Below are positions 31,249 through 38,242 of a stretch of DNA of 64,000 nucleotides, piece by piece (the first letter of the stretch is position 1; every line of letters begins with the position of its first letter). Source of the stretch: Halobaculum sp. MBLA0143 (GTDB taxonomy: Archaea; Halobacteriota; Halobacteria; Halobacteriales; Haloferacaceae); NCBI RefSeq assembly GCF_041361465.1, contig NZ_JBGKAC010000001.1:248001-312000 (forward strand), read 5' to 3'. The notes under the pieces are model-generated. The model searched no databases. It was not told where the DNA came from and worked only from the letters and a program-made list of their open reading frames with translations. Position numbers and translations under genes: made by a program.

Positions 31249-31354
31249 GGCCTCCTAACGTTGTCCCCGGCTCTCGACGGGCGCGACAGCCGCGGCCACG
31301 CCAGAGTCAGCCGTGACCACAGTAGATTTAAGCTGGCCCGTGGTACTCGGCGAC

Positions 31355-31564
31355 GTGAGAGACACCACCCTCGCGGCCAAACAGAGCCTCGCGTTGCTCC
31401 TGACGCTCCCGGTCGCCACCGCCGGTGTCGGAACGCTCACGCGATCCGATCCTGTCGCCGGCGCGTGGTCCGGGCTGGCGCTGGCGGTCTCGACTGCGCT
31501 GATCGGATCGTGGGCCGGGCTGTTCGGCGATCCCGACCGGACGGGTGCGTGGCTGGGGCTGTAG
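31355..31564 (+). CDS. Small two-helix membrane protein (first gene of duplicated locus)
   Basis: This 69-residue protein starts MRDTTLAAKQSLALLLTLPVA with two hydrophobic segments (about 9-27 and 36-54), then FGDPDRTGAWLGL. GTG 31355 is chosen because a GATTTAA box (about 31325-31331) lies ~27 nt upstream; GTG 31340 is the alternative. A decayed copy of this gene lies at 32462. That shows it belongs to the tandemly duplicated block with the two membrane-protein pairs. The function is unknown. Confidence 0.6.
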   Translation: MRDTTLAAKQSLALLLTLPVATAGVGTLTRSDPVAGAWSGLALAVSTALIGSWAGLFGDPDRTGAWLGL

Positions 31565-31655
31565 CTGGGTCGGAGCTCCGTTCACGACTGCTAATGTACG
31601 ACTCTCTGTACGTCGTTGTGGTCCCGTTCCAGCACGGACCCGCGTGGAGGACAGT

Positions 31656-31970
31656 GTGAGTTCCCCAGAGCGGCGACGAATCAAGCAGTTCGCAGTCGTC
31701 TCGCTGATCGTGGGGCTGTTCTCGCTGCGGGCGGCGTTACTGGGCCCGCCGTACGCGGTGTTTTCGATACGGTACTGTACGGAGACGACTGGCTCGCTGA
31801 CCGTCGTCTGGACCGCCGACCTCACGTTCGACTACGCCGGCGGCTGTGGAGCGTTGTTCGCCCGCCACCTCTACGCGGTGAAGTACGTCACGACCACCTG
31901 CGGCGCGATTATGACCCTGTACGGCGCTGTGATGCTGTTCAGACACGGACTCCCAGGGATGAATCGATGA
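31656..31970 (+). CDS. Small membrane protein A1 (paired-loop family)
   Basis: This 104-residue protein has an N-terminal helix (KQFAVVSLIVGLFSLRAAL), an external loop of ~45 residues and a C-terminal helix (CGAIMTLYGAVMLF) ending RHGLPGMNR. The loop has two cysteines flanking VVWTADLTFDY, which could form a disulfide outside the cell. GGAGG at 31647 places the ribosome for GTG 31656. The stop overlaps the ATG of B1 (ATGA). It is paralogous to A2, B1 and B2. I know no named family for it; topology and disulfide are inferred. Confidence 0.7.
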   Translation: MSSPERRRIKQFAVVSLIVGLFSLRAALLGPPYAVFSIRYCTETTGSLTVVWTADLTFDYAGGCGALFARHLYAVKYVTTTCGAIMTLYGAVMLFRHGLPGMNR

Positions 31971-32266
31971 CCGTTCCAGAGTGGCGACGGAAGTTGGCGA
32001 TTGTCGCTCTCACGACGGGTCTGCTCAGCCTGCGAGCGGCGCTGACACACCCTCCGGGGCCGGTACTCCAGGCGGGCTGTCAGGGGTGGCACTACAATCC
32101 AGTCACGTGGCGAGCCGATCTCACACTCGACTTCTACGATCAGGAGTGTTACGGCTATGCCGACGGCGCACTTGTCGTCTTCTCGCTCGTCACCGCCTGC
32201 GGCGTCGTTCTGACGGCGTACGGCGCAGTCACCCTGTTCCGCCACGGCCTCGACGGCAGTCAGTGA
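31967..32266 (+). CDS. Small membrane protein B1 (paired-loop family)
   Basis: This 99-residue protein is built like A1: helix KLAIVALTTGLLSLRAAL, loop with CQGWHYNPVTWRADLTLDFYDQEC, and helix CGVVLTAYGAVTLFRHGLDGSQ. The two loop cysteines bracket the motif TW..xLTLDFY shared by all four paralogues. It is translationally coupled to A1. The last ~70 nt differ from B2 at only one position, while the loops differ widely. Function unknown; it could be a receptor, inhibitor or immunity factor. Confidence 0.7.
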   Translation: MTVPEWRRKLAIVALTTGLLSLRAALTHPPGPVLQAGCQGWHYNPVTWRADLTLDFYDQECYGYADGALVVFSLVTACGVVLTAYGAVTLFRHGLDGSQ

Positions 32267-32270
32267 CTCC

Positions 32271-32332
32271 CTTCAGTCCCCGCCCGCTTCAGTCCCCGCC
32301 CGCTTCAGTCCCCGCCCGCTTCAGTCCCCACC
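32271..32332. repeat. 16-bp tandem repeat, copy 1
   Basis: CTTCAGTCCCCGCCCG is repeated three times exactly from 32271, then once partially with an altered end. A related array of two full units and a partial lies at 34395-34440. In the second array the last TCA is the stop codon of the MATE gene on the minus strand; here it belongs to the MATE relic. Confidence 0.8.
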
Positions 32333-32398
32333 GGCCCCACTCCCACGCTCGTCCATCATGTCGGCGGCGCGGTCGGCCCAGTTCGTGTACCGGAAGCC
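32321..32398 (-). pseudogene. Relic of MATE transporter 3' end
   Basis: About 78 nt match the 3' end of the MATE gene (34429-34506) with about one mismatch, including the stop codon and the coding segment for NWADRAADMMDERG. Homology stops abruptly near 32398, where unrelated DNA begins. This marks the right edge of the first copy of the tandem duplication. Confidence 0.8.
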
Positions 32399-32461
32399 CG
32401 AACCACCACCTCGGAGTCAGCTCTTGACCACAGTACATCTGGAGTCGCGGTAGTCGGCGAC

Positions 32462-32548
32462 GTGAGAGACACAGCCCTCGCTGCCAAACACATCGTTGTG
32501 TTGCTCCTGACACCCCCGACCGGGTGGGTGCGTGGCTGGGGGGGCCGT
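32462..32548 (+). pseudogene. Decayed copy of small two-helix membrane gene
   Basis: The segment 32424-32548 aligns with 31312-31566: shared TGACCACAGTA, GGCGACGTGAGAGACAC, GCCAAACA, TTGCTCCTGAC and, after a deletion of roughly 115-120 nt, GGTGCGTGGCTGGGG. The deletion removes both membrane helices. A 44-codon frame remains open by chance to 32596. It marks the left edge of the second copy of the duplicated block. Confidence 0.75.
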
Positions 32549-32591
32549 AGTCCGCCAGAGGCGCTGTCGTGGTTGCGTCGGGCCTGTAACG

Positions 32592-33794
32592 ATGTCTAGA
32601 CAAACAGCTAACAGCAGCGAAACAGAAACTTATACAAACTCGGATTCAATACACGGAGATATAACACGCTCGACCCGGCGGTCTGCACTCAAGAGTCTCG
32701 GCATCGGTGTTCTCGGCGTCGGAACTGTCCCAGTGGCTTCGGCCGACAAGAAGGTGACAGTGGTCACTGGGCGGTCGGGGTCTGAGCCGGTTGCGAGGGA
32801 GACGGTCCCGCGGCGGTGGTACGAACACGCGAAGGCGGCCCGCCGTGTCAAGTCAAACCTGAGCCGACGGTACGCAGCGAACGACGCGGTGGTGGACGTG
32901 GCAATCGGGCGCGGTGACTCGAAGATCGGACGCCTCTGGAAGAACACGGTCGAGGTCGACGTGCAGCGAGGCGCTGCCAGCAGTCTCAGTCTGCCGGACT
33001 CCGCTGAGGGAGTCGCTGTCAACACGAACGCCGTCGACCGGACGGACAACGAGATCGAACTCCAGTTCTGTAACAACATGGGGGACTACGACGGAATCGT
33101 GGGTGGTGTCGAGACCCGCGCGATTCAGGACGGCGACAACACCCTCGATTCGACTGCCACGATGTGTTGTCCGGTCACGAAGGGCTCGACACAGTACGCC
33201 CTGGTTGCGAATCACATGTTCCTGCCGGACAAATCACAGTGTGACGGGAACTGGGACAAGCGACTGTACCAAGACGACGCTAACGACTACATCGGTCAGG
33301 TCGAACGGTACAACGAAGAGTTAGACTACGCCCTGGTGAAGCCGTACGACCCGACCATGACAATTCAGAACCGTGTCGTCGGTGAGTCGTGGGCAGACGG
33401 CAGTATCGTCGGCCACGCCACCCTGGATGGACTCCAGATTTATATGTCAGGAGAGACGCCAGTGCGCAAGATGGGCGTATCTACGGGCAGGAACAGCGGA
33501 CGGATTAAGCGTCTTAATGCAGACTTCACATCTGGCTGCCCGTCAATAAATGGCGAGGGTATAAGAACTGGGGCGGAAGGTGCTAAAGGGGACTCTGGCG
33601 GACCACACTACGTTACAACGGAGATGGATGGTGTACTCATTACTGGAATGCACGTAGGTGCAAAAGGAGATAAAACTGGAGAGAAATCTTGTACAAATGA
33701 TGGGGTCTCGGGGAATGAGAGTCCTATACGGCCGGTGAGTATATCTACACCAGCGTACAAGATGTCTAATATAGACAATTTAAAATTTGGATAG
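32592..33794 (+). CDS. Tat-exported trypsin-like serine protease
   Basis: This 400-residue protein has a long polar N-terminus, then a twin-arginine signal (TRRSALKSLGIGVLGVGTVPVASA, about residues 36-60). A chymotrypsin-fold domain occupies about 150-400. The likely triad is H208 (ALVANHMF), D245 (LDYALVKP) and S335 in GDSGGP. About eight cysteines in the mature part suggest disulfides, fitting export. The last ~370 nt are AT-rich compared with the first part and neighbours. It lies between the two A/B membrane-protein pairs and ends 12 nt before A2, so it is likely co-transcribed with A2-B2. The target is unknown. Triad assignments rest on motif spacing. Confidence 0.85.
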   Translation: MSRQTANSSETETYTNSDSIHGDITRSTRRSALKSLGIGVLGVGTVPVASADKKVTVVTGRSGSEPVARETVPRRWYEHAKAARRVKSNLSRRYAANDAVVDVAIGRGDSKIGRLWKNTVEVDVQRGAASSLSLPDSAEGVAVNTNAVDRTDNEIELQFCNNMGDYDGIVGGVETRAIQDGDNTLDSTATMCCPVTKGSTQYALVANHMFLPDKSQCDGNWDKRLYQDDANDYIGQVERYNEELDYALVKPYDPTMTIQNRVVGESWADGSIVGHATLDGLQIYMSGETPVRKMGVSTGRNSGRIKRLNADFTSGCPSINGEGIRTGAEGAKGDSGGPHYVTTEMDGVLITGMHVGAKGDKTGEKSCTNDGVSGNESPIRPVSISTPAYKMSNIDNLKFG

Positions 33795-33806
33795 GTGGCA
33801 GTCCAC

Positions 33807-34100
33807 ATGAGTAGGCGCATCAAACAGTTTGCAGTCGTCTCGCTGATCGTCGGCGTGTTCGCGCTCCGGGCGGCACTTTCGAATCCTCCAGCAGGCGTGC
33901 TACACGGTGGCTGTCTGTCTGAGAGTGAGCCAGTCACTTGGACCCGTGGCCTAACACTGGACTTTTATCAGCAGTGTAGCATGACCTACGCCGAGCATGC
34001 AGTTGTAATATATCAGACTATGGTAGTCTGCGGCGCGATCATGACGCTGTACGGCGCGGTGATCTTGTTCAGACACGGACTCCCGGGGATGAACCGATGA
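33807..34100 (+). CDS. Small membrane protein A2 (paired-loop family)
   Basis: This 97-residue paralogue of A1 has helix KQFAVVSLIVGVFALRAAL, an external loop with C...PVTWTRGLTLDFYQQC, and helix CGAIMTLYGAVILFRHGLPGMNR. AGGTGG at 33793-33798 is the ribosome site for ATG 33807 and overlaps the protease stop. The gene ends in ATGA, overlapping B2. Both helices are almost identical to A1; the loop is not. Function unknown. Confidence 0.7.
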   Translation: MSRRIKQFAVVSLIVGVFALRAALSNPPAGVLHGGCLSESEPVTWTRGLTLDFYQQCSMTYAEHAVVIYQTMVVCGAIMTLYGAVILFRHGLPGMNR

Positions 34101-34390
34101 CCATTCCGGAGTGGCAACGGAAATTAGCTGTTACCGCTCTCCTGACGGGTCTGTTCAGCCTGCGAGCGGCCCTCACGAACCCCCCTATTTACAACGAGGT
34201 CTGCCAGGGATGGGGCTACAACCGAGTCACGTGGCGGCGAGATCTCACACTCGATTTTTATATGCAAGGTTGTCAAAGGCCGGTTGTCGGCTCACTTGCG
34301 ATCTTCTTGGGTGTCACCGCCTGCGGCGTCGTTCTGACGGCGTACGGCGCAGTCACCCTGTTCCGCCACGGTCTCGACGGCAGTCAGTGA
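34097..34390 (+). CDS. Small membrane protein B2 (paired-loop family)
   Basis: This 97-residue paralogue of B1 has helix KLAVTALLTGLFSLRAAL, loop CQGWGYNRVTWRRDLTLDFYMQGC, and C-terminal helix CGVVLTAYGAVTLFRHGLDGSQ. The loop keeps the two cysteines and TW..xLTLDFY, but the residues before and after them differ completely from B1. It is translationally coupled to A2 and convergent with the MATE gene 38 nt away. Confidence 0.7.
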   Translation: MTIPEWQRKLAVTALLTGLFSLRAALTNPPIYNEVCQGWGYNRVTWRRDLTLDFYMQGCQRPVVGSLAIFLGVTACGVVLTAYGAVTLFRHGLDGSQ

Positions 34391-34394
34391 CTCG

Positions 34395-34440
34395 TTTCAG
34401 TCCCCGCCCGCTTCAGTCTCCGCCCGCTTCAGTCCCCACC
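34395..34440. repeat. 16-bp tandem repeat, copy 2
   Basis: Two full units of TTCAGTCCCCGCCCGC type (one base changed in each) plus a partial unit lie between B2 and the MATE stop codon. The array at 32271 has one unit more. The unit-number difference is the expected slippage product after duplication. Confidence 0.75.
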
Positions 34441-35802
34441 GGCTCCACTCCCACGCTCGTCCATCATGTCGGCGGCGCGGTCGGCCCAGTTCGTGTACCG
34501 GAAGCCGAGGAAGGCGACGGCGGCCATCCAGACGTAGTGGAGGCCGACGGCCCAGTAGGCGCCGACGGGGCCGAGTTCGAACACGACGCCCAGGAGGTAC
34601 GTCCCGCCGAGTAGTACGCCGAACACGCCGGAGAGGCGGGCGACGAGCGGGATACGGGTCTCGCTTGCGCCCTGGAGCGCCCCCGAGAGGACGACGTAGC
34701 CGACGAGAAACACGGCGGTGAGCCCGTACACCTGGGCGAAGGCGACGGCGTACGGGACGGCGGCGGGCGAGCCCTGGGCGAACAGGGCGACGAACCGGTC
34801 GGCGAAGGCGACGAGCCCGAGGCCGACGGCGCCGACGGTGGCGAGCCCGAGCCCGGTGGCGGCGTACCCCTCGTACAGCGCACGGTCGGCGTCGCCGTCA
34901 CCCAGCGCCTGACCGACGACGACGGAGCCGGCGACGTTGTACCCGCGCGAGAGCGGACCGGTGACCTGTTGGTACATCCGGCGACCGATCTGGAAGCCGG
35001 CGTTGACGGGCGTCCCGAAGCTCAAGAGGAGCGCGTTGAACGGGAACTCCGCGGCGGTGGCGGCGAACCCCTCCAGCACGCGTGGGGTCGACACCCGGAC
35101 GAGCTGGCGGGCGATCACGAGGTCGCGCGGCCGGACGAGCGAGGCGTTCGTCCGGTCCGTCCACATCGCCGCCAGCAGCGCGCCGGCGGTGAGGAGGTTG
35201 CCGGCGGCCGTCGCCAGTCCGACACCGAGAACCCCGAGCTCGGGTGCGCCGAACAGACCGAGTCCGAATACGACGGAGCCGACGATGTTGACGGCGTTCG
35301 AGGCGACGTTGACGTACATCGGGGTGCGGGTGTCGCCGGTGCCCTGGAGCGACCGAGCGCCGACGAGCGCGACGTGACGCGCCGGCGCGGTGGCGAAGAT
35401 GATCGCCAGGTACGTCCCGCCGAGTGTGGCGGTTCGTTCGGCGGCGCCCAAGACGCCGATCAGCTCCCGGCCGAACAGGCCACCGACGAGCACGAACGGC
35501 AGACCGGCGACGATCCCCATCAGCAGCGCCTGGGTGACGGCCTCGTCGCGGTTGGCGACGGCGTCGGCACCGGTGTCCTGACTCGACAGGGCGATCGCGC
35601 CGCCTCCGAGCCCGAGCCCGATCCGGAGCGGGAACCGGGCGTACAGGTCCGCGAGGCCGATCGCGACGACCGCGGCCGGCGAGAACTGCGCGGTGACGAT
35701 CACGTCGGTCGTCCGCATCGCCGTCCGGAACGTCTGCTCGGTCATGACGGGCCACGACAGCGACAACACCCGTCGCCAGACACCGAGCAGTCGACTAGCC
35801 AT
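34429..35802 (-). CDS. MATE-family efflux transporter
   Basis: This 457-residue membrane protein has about twelve transmembrane segments in two related halves. Typical MATE elements are WPVMTEQTFRTAMRTTDVIVTAQFS at the start and ALQGASETRIPLVARLSGV and RSLQGTGDTRTPMYVNVASN before helices of each half. It should export organic cations or drugs in exchange for Na+ or H+. ATG 35802 is chosen because the frame upstream overlaps the promoter of the divergent nuclease. Its 3' end was copied into 32321-32398. It is unrelated in state to the decayed MATE at 57212. Confidence 0.92.
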   Translation of the reverse strand: MASRLLGVWRRVLSLSWPVMTEQTFRTAMRTTDVIVTAQFSPAAVVAIGLADLYARFPLRIGLGLGGGAIALSSQDTGADAVANRDEAVTQALLMGIVAGLPFVLVGGLFGRELIGVLGAAERTATLGGTYLAIIFATAPARHVALVGARSLQGTGDTRTPMYVNVASNAVNIVGSVVFGLGLFGAPELGVLGVGLATAAGNLLTAGALLAAMWTDRTNASLVRPRDLVIARQLVRVSTPRVLEGFAATAAEFPFNALLLSFGTPVNAGFQIGRRMYQQVTGPLSRGYNVAGSVVVGQALGDGDADRALYEGYAATGLGLATVGAVGLGLVAFADRFVALFAQGSPAAVPYAVAFAQVYGLTAVFLVGYVVLSGALQGASETRIPLVARLSGVFGVLLGGTYLLGVVFELGPVGAYWAVGLHYVWMAAVAFLGFRYTNWADRAADMMDERGSGAGGD

Positions 35803-35956
35803 ACACCCCACTGGAGTGCCCGCCTGTTCACGATGACGGAAGCGGAACGGACGTGTGTGGCGCGTGGCAGCCGACGGCCCGACCCCGACGCCCGCGACGA
35901 TCGTCGCGTCGGTATCGACCGAACTATGTGTGAAGTCGCTCAGACGATGTTTGTCG

Positions 35957-38242
35957 ATGCAACGCAGACAGTTCCTCTCTGGCGTCGTCGGAACGACGGC
36001 GGCCGCGGGGTTCGCGACTGCGACGAACGGTGAGGGGCACCGACCGGCCGAGCAGACGGCCACGATCTCACAACTGTACTTCGACTCGACGTGTAGCCTG
36101 CTGAACGCGGACGGAGAGCCGCTGGCGAGCGACGACAGCGTCGTCGTCCGTGCCGCGGAGACGGCAGAGGTGACCGACGAGGACGGCAACGGCGACGCCA
36201 CTCCGTACGACGGCGTCTCGGCGGCGCCGGCGCTCGCGGCCGTCGCCGACGGGGTCGCCGGGCTCGGCGCGCCGTTCGTGACGGACAGCGCCGACTTCGC
36301 GTACGGTAACGACGAGTTCCTGTTGAACCTCTGGGACGAGCTGATCGGCGGGGGGACGGTCCTGTGGGACGAGGGCCACGAGCAGTACTACTACGCAGAC
36401 CGGTTCGGCACGTTCCTCGACCACGCCGAAGACCAGGGGTACACCGTCGAGTCGACGACGGATATGACGGCGGACCTGGGTGGGGCGGACGCGCTGGTCG
36501 TCACGTCCCCGTCGCGGGCGTTCGACGACGCGGAGCTGTCGGCGATCCAGTCGTTCCGGGACGACGGCGGCGCGGTGATCCTCCACAGCCAGTCGGACTA
36601 CCAGAACTTCGACGAGACGGACAACATGAACGCGCTGGCGGCGGCGCTGTCGCTCCCGTTCCGGTTCGACGACTGCCAGGTGGTGGACGACGAGACGAAC
36701 GCGGGGAGCTTCTTCCAGCCGGCGACGACGAACTTCGTCGGGCCGGCCGCGTTGTTCGAGTCCCGGGAGGGGGTGCCCACCGGGCCCGAGTTCCAGTTCG
36801 ACACGGAGTACACCGCCGAGATCACGGACGTGGCCGACGGCGACACGTTCACCGTGTCGTTCCCGGACGCCGAGGGCGGGCCGGAGGAGGTACGCGTCCT
36901 GGGCGTGGACACGCCGGAGGTGCCGGCCGCGGCCGACGCCGAGGACCCCCACGAGTGGGAGGGGCTGGGCGACGAGGCCGAAGGCGAGGAGGTCGACGGT
37001 GAATACCCGTACCTCTCCTCGTGGGGCGAGAAGGCGTCGTCGTTCGCCAAGTCGGAGCTCGCGGGCGAGACGGTGACACTCACCTTCGACGAGAACGAGG
37101 GGATCGAGGACCCGTTCGGCCGGCTGTTGGCGTACGCCCACTACGACCGCGACGGCTCCGGCTCGCGGGACACGCTGTGGTCGCGAGAGGTGTTGTCGGC
37201 CGGCTACGCCCGGGTGTACGACTCCGGACTGTCGCGTCACGACGAACTGCTGCAGACGGAGCTGGCGGCCCGCGCGGACGACCGCGGCGTCTGGGGCGAG
37301 AGCGATCCGGACGACACCCGGCCGCTGCGCGACGAGCCGGTGTCTCGGCTCGTGTTCCCGCAGGCGGTGTCCGTCGGCCGGTTCGGCGGCGACCTCGCGG
37401 ACGAGCGCGTGCCCGTGCGGGCCGCGGAGACGGCCTCCCAGCCGGGGGCACCGTTGGTGGCCGTCGACCCGGACAGCCGGCTGGCGGCCGTCGGGGGGAC
37501 GCTCGTCGGCGACGACTACGTCGAGGAGTTCGACGGCTTCGGGAACGAGCCGTTCGTGGCGAACCTCCTGACGGCGCTGTCGGATCTCGAGGGTGACGTG
37601 CTGTGGGACGGCGGCCACGGCCAGTTCTCCGCCGACGCCGGCACCGCTCTGGAGGGTGCGAGCGCGTTCCAACGGTACCTCGAGGGCGTCGACCTGGGAG
37701 TCGAGCAGGTCAACGACTACGACACCGGCCTGTTGGTGCGGGGACAGGCGTTGCTGGTGACGCCGCCGGCGAGGAAGTTCGGCTCGGCGGAGCTGTCGGC
37801 GATCCGGTCGTTCCGCGACGCCGGCGGCGCGGTGGTGTTGTTCGGCTCTGCCGCCTCGACGGACGCCACAGAGCGGCTGAACGCCGTCGCGGCGGCGCTG
37901 GGATCGGACCTCACCCTGGGCACGACCGGCGTGACGGACCCGGAGACGGCCGCCACAGACGAGGCGGACCCGACGACGACCGCGTTCGGCGACGGCAACC
38001 TGTTCGGCGCTCACGCCGACACGGAGCCGTCGCTGGCGACGGCGACACCCACCCCGACCACGACCCCGACACCGACGGGGACGACCGAGTCCGCGACTCC
38101 GGCAGAGACGACGACCCGAGCCACGACCGAGACGACGGCGCCGGGACTGGGCGTCGTCTCGACGGCCGTCGCCGCCGTCGGTGGTGGGCTGGCGGCGCTG
38201 GCCGGACGCCGTCGCGGCGACGACGGAGACGGCGACGACTGA
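35957..38242 (+). CDS. Exported thermonuclease (SNase) with flanking DUF4350-like domains
   Basis: This 761-residue protein has a Tat signal (MQRRQFLSGVVGTTAAAGFATA) and a first alpha/beta domain (about 55-270, with GTVLWDEGHEQYY, ALVVTSPSRAF and SFRDDGGAVILHS). A staphylococcal-nuclease domain follows (about 275-440, RVLGVDTPE and FGRLLAYAHYD, matching the catalytic Arg/Asp regions). A second domain like the first follows (about 470-670, DVLWDGGHGQFS, LLVTPPARKFG, SFRDAGGAVVLF). A Thr/Pro-rich stalk and a C-terminal APGLGVVSTAVAAVGGGLAALAGRRR anchor end it, close to the PGF-CTERM type. It would degrade extracellular DNA or RNA at the surface. ATG 35957 opens the signal. The repeat domains are identified by pattern only. 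Confidence 0.82.
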   Translation: MQRRQFLSGVVGTTAAAGFATATNGEGHRPAEQTATISQLYFDSTCSLLNADGEPLASDDSVVVRAAETAEVTDEDGNGDATPYDGVSAAPALAAVADGVAGLGAPFVTDSADFAYGNDEFLLNLWDELIGGGTVLWDEGHEQYYYADRFGTFLDHAEDQGYTVESTTDMTADLGGADALVVTSPSRAFDDAELSAIQSFRDDGGAVILHSQSDYQNFDETDNMNALAAALSLPFRFDDCQVVDDETNAGSFFQPATTNFVGPAALFESREGVPTGPEFQFDTEYTAEITDVADGDTFTVSFPDAEGGPEEVRVLGVDTPEVPAAADAEDPHEWEGLGDEAEGEEVDGEYPYLSSWGEKASSFAKSELAGETVTLTFDENEGIEDPFGRLLAYAHYDRDGSGSRDTLWSREVLSAGYARVYDSGLSRHDELLQTELAARADDRGVWGESDPDDTRPLRDEPVSRLVFPQAVSVGRFGGDLADERVPVRAAETASQPGAPLVAVDPDSRLAAVGGTLVGDDYVEEFDGFGNEPFVANLLTALSDLEGDVLWDGGHGQFSADAGTALEGASAFQRYLEGVDLGVEQVNDYDTGLLVRGQALLVTPPARKFGSAELSAIRSFRDAGGAVVLFGSAASTDATERLNAVAAALGSDLTLGTTGVTDPETAATDEADPTTTAFGDGNLFGAHADTEPSLATATPTPTTTPTPTGTTESATPAETTTRATTETTAPGLGVVSTAVAAVGGGLAALAGRRRGDDGDGDD

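Follow-up and report, generated by a model that had tools for sequence, protein, structure and literature searches.

In the 64,000-nucleotide stretch of Halobaculum sp. MBLA0143 DNA analysed here (the window), the four small membrane-protein genes A1, B1, A2 and B2 lie within a tandem segmental duplication, overlooked in an earlier sequence-only reading, whose unit comprises a gene for a further small membrane protein (memb83), an A gene, a B gene and the 3′ end of a MATE gene. Between this genome and a MAG of the same genus, the loop that separates the two predicted membrane helices of these proteins has changed places between A and B genes. As read from the aligned genes, we consider this swap to be direct evidence that ectopic recombination shuffles loops between the A and B frames, and we are highly confident of the recombination history itself.

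Results

The first gene of the duplicated unit is memb83, an open reading frame for a small two-helix membrane protein (31313..31564, plus strand), which is followed by A1 (31656..31970, plus strand) and B1 (31967..32266, plus strand). The right edge of unit 1 is a copy of the 3′ end of the MATE gene and its downstream region (32285..32398, minus strand), which is 97% identical to positions 34393-34506. The left edge of unit 2 is a degenerate copy of memb83 (32406..32541, plus strand) that retains the 5′ part, has an internal deletion of approximately 124 nt, and is identical to 31296-31411 at 92 of 111 positions and to 31532-31558 at 25 of 27. A trypsin-like (S1) protease gene is inserted in unit 2 only (32592..33794, plus strand) and precedes A2 (33807..34100, plus strand) and B2 (34097..34390, plus strand). 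The right flank is the MATE family transporter gene (34429..36201, minus strand; PF01554, E = 3.8e-32; orthologs in relatives), the source of the duplicated 3′ end, whose true start probably lies inside the open reading frame at a coordinate below 36201. The order of elements is memb83-A1-B1-MATE 3′ end in unit 1 and memb83 fragment-protease-A2-B2-MATE in unit 2. In MBLA0143, the MAG and G173 (a third genus member), the gene next to MATE encodes a protein with DUF4350 and staphylococcal nuclease domains (window positions 35951-38242).

The repeat extends from within A to beyond the B stop codon at a spacing of approximately 2.1 kb and continues as far as the convergent MATE gene, of which it takes in the 3′ end. 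Past the stop of B, near-identity continues through non-coding DNA and the copied MATE 3′ end (116 of 119 nucleotides identical over 32264-32398). Because of this near-identity and the degenerate copy of memb83, the locus should be considered a segmental duplication and not a set of four free-standing paralogues. The four paralogous genes described in the sequence-only reading were confirmed, and all four are open. That the genes form two translationally coupled pairs, A1-B1 and A2-B2, is borne out by a 4-nt overlap (ATGA) in each. Between B and MATE, a 16-nt unit (CCCCGCCCGCTTCAGT) is repeated (32270-32330 and 34393-34440), and unit 1 has one copy more than unit 2, which appears as a 16-nt gap in the alignment.

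Directly upstream of A1 lies a vestigial fifth copy, in which only the 3′ end of an A-type gene survives (MYDSLYVVVVPFQHGPAWRTV*; 31594..31659, plus strand). This remnant of 21 codons was identified by alignment to the 3′ ends of A-type genes, with scores that were equalled by 0, 1 and 0 of 2000 dinucleotide shuffles, and its stop overlaps the A1 start just as in the intact A-B pairs. The GC3 values are 0.75-0.81 for A1 and B1 and 0.64-0.67 for the protease, A2 and B2 (0.64 for the protease itself); because of these lower values, unit 2 may have originated in another lineage and been acquired via recombination at its flanks.

The A and B proteins have approximately 100 residues each, with two predicted membrane helices, an intervening loop of approximately 45 residues and the C-terminus YGAV.LFRHG, and the two types are paralogues of each other, with 42-43% identity. 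The loop of all four proteins contains two cysteines around a (T/V)W..xLT[LF]D[FY] core, which agrees with the bracketed motif described earlier, and a third invariant cysteine, missing from that description, stands at the start of helix 2 in all four. In a hydropathy scan, both helices exceeded the threshold in A2 only, and one helix did so in A1, B1 and B2. The AlphaFold model of A1 contains helices at residues 3-28 and 66-97 and a low-confidence hairpin (mean pLDDT 63.6, with most of the loop below 50). The presumed cytoplasmic ends both carry positive charges, from which we tentatively place the two termini in the cytoplasm and the loop outside. No match to A or B above the cut-off was present in Pfam, NCBIfam, PHROGs or PADLOC, and the A/B profile had only chance matches among the sequences of solved structures. 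The match of A1 to CyanoTRADDas_TM (PF20712), a family of two-helix membrane domains, fell below the cut-off (E = 0.019) and was treated as chance; it covers 29 residues of helix 2, occurs in one of the six A/B members, and is accompanied by no further common feature. The A and B proteins constitute a previously undescribed family of small membrane proteins.

The last 22 codons of B1 and B2 differ at 1 of 66 nucleotides and the loops at 45 of 135 (Fisher's test, 2e-8); for A1 and A2, the C-terminal ends differ at 7 of 69 and the loops at 88 of 138 (5e-14). The DNA identity of the N-helix ends is 74% for A and 81% for B. Thus, the near-identity of the ends that had been reported holds for the C-helix and not for the N-helix, and the strong divergence of the loops was confirmed. 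A combination of conserved ends with a variable segment, which characterizes surface-antigen systems, is found in B1/B2, in which the variable segment is the presumably exposed loop.

Silent divergence between the paralogues of one genome was estimated using a codon model instead of NG86, whose pS is inflated in the loops by several changes per codon, and in both B1/B2 (LRT 7.8) and A1/A2 (LRT 10.7) the loop exceeded the ends in this measure. At fourfold-degenerate codons alone, the loop/end contrast of B1/B2 is weak (2/12 vs. 1/15), and these sites are few. The duplicated flank, which is presumed neutral, differs at 3 of 119 nucleotides compared with 45 of 135 and 88 of 138 in the loops; therefore, unless the flank has itself been homogenised, the loops did not diverge in place by point changes since the duplication, and recombination is required in either case.

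Recombination is also seen in comparison with the MAG genes A3 and B3. The identity of A1 is 69% with B3 and 47% with A3, and in the MAG the A1-type loop sits in the B gene and a B-type loop in the A gene. A1 is a mosaic of A-type helices and a loop, type I, that is shared with B3; B1 has loop type II, B2 combines a B-type frame with loop type II, and A2 combines an A-type frame with a loop that is nearest to type II yet distinct. At the DNA level, blocks of the loop are 64-92% identical between A1 and B3 where A1 and A3 are 20-50% identical. In the quartet A1, A3, B1 and B3, informative sites were classed as supporting a swap (A1 with B3, A3 with B1) or orthology (A with A, B with B). The result is a mosaic of the type found in antigen systems subject to gene conversion, with 41 swap sites and 2 orthology sites in the loop, 0 and 8 in the C-terminal end, and 4 and 5 in the N-terminal end. 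Permutation of site runs gave p values of approximately 5e-5 for the swap run and 6e-4 for the orthology run. Replacing B1 with B2 produced the same result (39 vs. 3), and replacing A1 with A2 produced a weak one (12 vs. 6), which indicates that the loop of A2 is a variant in its own right. B3 resembles the A type in helix 1 as well; therefore, the exchange tracts were short and several. Because the family is known from two genomes, all of these comparisons involve six genes of approximately 100 codons. The earlier proposal that gene conversion or recombination has made the ends alike and the loops different is strongly supported by the interspecies swap and by the silent divergence of loop and ends.

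The simplest history is that A1 derives from a B3-like gene in the B position: loss of the A gene in front of it would have been followed by replacement of its ends with A-type sequence. The A1/B3 loop could also be a case of simple orthology with converted ends, which would still be ectopic recombination and not strict cassette exchange.

The loop shared by A1 and B3 is under purifying selection, with an omega of about 0.1-0.16. Its pS is 0.52 and its pN is 0.13 (omega 0.16, 95% interval 0.05-0.34), and the codon model yields an omega of 0.09 and rejects omega = 1 (LRT 29.8). The pS of orthologous neighbours is 0.28-0.45, and by this comparison the two loops separated near the time of the species split, or a little before it, and were constrained thereafter. 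Diversifying selection by point mutation, which had been offered as one origin of the loop variety, is thus rejected as the main cause, and the purifying selection on this loop indicates that diversity arose from the exchange of old, constrained loop types.

Among 170 genomes of the family, A and B occur in two, MBLA0143 and the MAG (G391), at the same locus, and the expectation that they always form coupled pairs held in both. The gene order in the MAG is memb151 (minus strand), memb83, A3, B3, a proteasome-like gene (minus strand) and MATE (minus strand), with the same 4-nt A-B overlap, and the order memb83-A-B is conserved in both carriers. The memb83 ortholog of the MAG is 67-68% identical and occupies the same position; neither memb83 nor A/B genes were found in G173 and G345, two of the four genus members. 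A scan with B2 that covered 84,980 species by one genome each and is sensitive to close relatives only had as its sole match a 6.7-kb contig (L006) of a haloferacacean MAG, and since its A3, B3 and proteasome-like genes match contig C259 of G391 at 99-100%, we take it to be the same contig. Profile searches of 391 genomes of the class returned only apparent chance matches outside the genus. Six weak loci from these searches were translated and read, and no protein like A or B appeared in any of them: stops interrupt the matched frame of the best locus, L069, and two represent the start of another conserved gene. A 95-residue NPP protein in L009 was not recovered by the six-member A/B profile. 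No A/B relatives were present in the viral contigs and the phage and plasmid records searched. A pattern of single homologues in many genomes, with no protease neighbour and with uniform divergence, was not found as a whole, and the homologues are paired, few and non-uniformly divergent.

Two side observations concern the same interval in relatives. The MAG gene between B3 and MATE (L006 2338-3168, minus strand) encodes a proteasome-like (Ntn hydrolase) protein of 276 aa that begins MTVGIG and has a proteasome beta-2 subunit as its best solved match (E = 4.6e-5). G173 has the same DUF460-like and MATE flanks with other genes between them (L027 7343-8777). These encode an ABC transporter pair, a histidine kinase of the PAS-GAF type, small peptides of 76 and 78 aa, and an enzyme with the tetrapyrrole-methylase fold (PF00590, E = 2.2e-19). 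This cluster, of which the domains alone were tested here, presumably resembles a split borosin-type peptide N-methylation cluster.

The exported GDSGGP protease does lie between A1-B1 and A2-B2, as had been stated, and its sequence contains a Tat signal (RR at residues 29-30) and a full triad, placed by motif at H208, D245 and S335. The ordered His-Asp-Ser triad with GDSGG that marks S1 proteases is thus present, and the alignment to streptogrisin B is weak (E = 0.28). In motif order and in weak profile matches, the protease resembles the exported, streptogrisin-like S1 proteases of haloarchaea (relatives of NF051463 and Trypsin_2), but no profile match exceeded the cut-off, including the curated cut-offs of these two, and the protein is outside the A/B family. 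Relatives of the protease occur in 50 of 391 haloarchaeal genomes, usually at 23-36% identity. MBLA0143 has four copies, the other three of which (C2:115383-116369, C1:1626964-1627944 and C1:2716211-2717227; L107, L108 and L109) are 29-30% identical to the one in the window. Ten loci of protease relatives, three of them from MBLA0143, contained no two-helix Cys-loop pair under a hydropathy rule by which one helix of certain A/B members goes unnoticed and which is not exhaustive for unrelated small proteins, and sequence searches located A/B relatives at the memb83-MATE locus only. The MAG locus has no protease, and the protease relative of the MAG lies elsewhere. Consequently, the suggested link between A/B and a secreted protease, of which there is one case in one genome, was not upheld; the protease is absent from the MAG locus and from unit 1, its relatives are unlinked to A/B, and it was rejected as a conserved partner. 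Most probably it arrived in unit 2 separately, as a passenger independent of A/B.

Discussion

We propose that A and B represent a lineage-specific tandem family of coupled two-helix proteins that would evolve by segmental duplication and ectopic recombination. The conserved helix-coding ends would serve as homology arms for recombination between copies, and an old, disulfide-capable external loop would be transferable between the A and B membrane frames. This combined explanation, to which no specific function is attached, appears to us fairly probable. A and B presumably act jointly as a coupled pair, and the loops may be exchangeable binding surfaces. The likeliest single function, which we name tentatively as a plausible candidate at well below even odds, would be recognition at the cell surface or the exclusion of viruses, toxins or neighbouring cells. 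A constrained, exchangeable, Cys-braced loop in a coupled pair fits such a function best, and we give a similar probability to a neutral history in which the proteins have an ordinary membrane role.

According to that neutral history, duplication and segment exchange among small orphan membrane genes are chance events, loop variety is not selected for, and the proteins have no part in recognition. The restriction of the family to one genus, its absence from two of four genus members, and the vestigial A copy and degenerate memb83 copy are all consistent with such birth and death, and recombination alone would account for the similar ends. However, all four genes are open and coupled and retain three cysteines and the motif, and between the two species purifying selection on the shared loop is strong; we consider the neutral history a real possibility that falls short of an even chance. 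A surface antagonism or immunity pair, whose loops would bind a viral, halocin or neighbour-cell ligand with a specificity set by loop type, agrees with the two predicted helices, the Cys-braced variable loop and the exchange of loop types between frames. It is rendered somewhat doubtful by the lack of any match in PADLOC, PHROGs or the viral contigs and of a recognised toxin or halocin gene in the unit: no linked toxin, effector or defence gene was found, with no PADLOC match for A1, B1, the protease or memb83 and no convincing PHROGs match for A/B.

The two remaining explanations rely on neighbouring genes. A and B could be accessory or stress-response membrane proteins that act with memb83 in a membrane complex, with the loop as a structural lid, and the identical memb83-A-B order in both carriers and the occurrence of memb83 nowhere else in the genus would be expected in this case; nevertheless, memb83 is degenerate in unit 2 and the exchange of very different loops between frames is left unexplained, so this explanation is unlikely. 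The sequence-only reading had also suggested control of the protease, in which case A and B would anchor it, inhibit it or be cut by it. Although the protease gene stops 12 nt short of A2 and the GC3 shared by the protease, A2 and B2, lower than that of A1 and B1, would be compatible with joint arrival, neither unit 1 nor the MAG pair is accompanied by a protease, and the three other MBLA0143 paralogues and seven other inspected homologue loci lack A/B-like pairs, which makes this explanation highly improbable.

If the loops are recognition surfaces, then the family would offer a compact, genetically tractable case for loop specificity and would hint at an unrecognised cell-surface conflict of haloarchaea. 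If they are not, then the locus nonetheless illustrates mosaic gene evolution cleanly, caught between two species. The boldest proposal, an archaeal surface-recognition system in which coupled proteins swap a Cys-braced loop at their helix-coding ends and thereby give each cell a combinatorial pair of loop types, is one that we regard as improbable. Searches of the open-access literature returned no report of loop shuffling in small haloarchaeal membrane proteins or of such an archaeal system, which is weak evidence of absence.

The shuffling of loops between paralogues is classic in bacterial pathogens, and in multigene families for surface antigens, such as pilin and opa of Neisseria and tpr of Treponema, gene conversion shuffles the variable segments. 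One report on syphilis strains has as its subject recombination-driven diversity in genes for predicted surface-exposed antigens (PMC6685089). The A/B proteins differ from these families in that they are archaeal two-helix proteins encoded by two to four genes only, with no store of silent cassettes: a search of the MBLA0143 genome for silent partial cassettes returned only the four A/B genes, to which the one vestigial tail upstream of A1 may be added. A relation by sequence to the bacterial families is not expected. By analogy, what the A/B family appears to have in common with the Neisseria and Treponema systems is a set of conserved frames, exchangeable external segments and recombination at the conserved ends.
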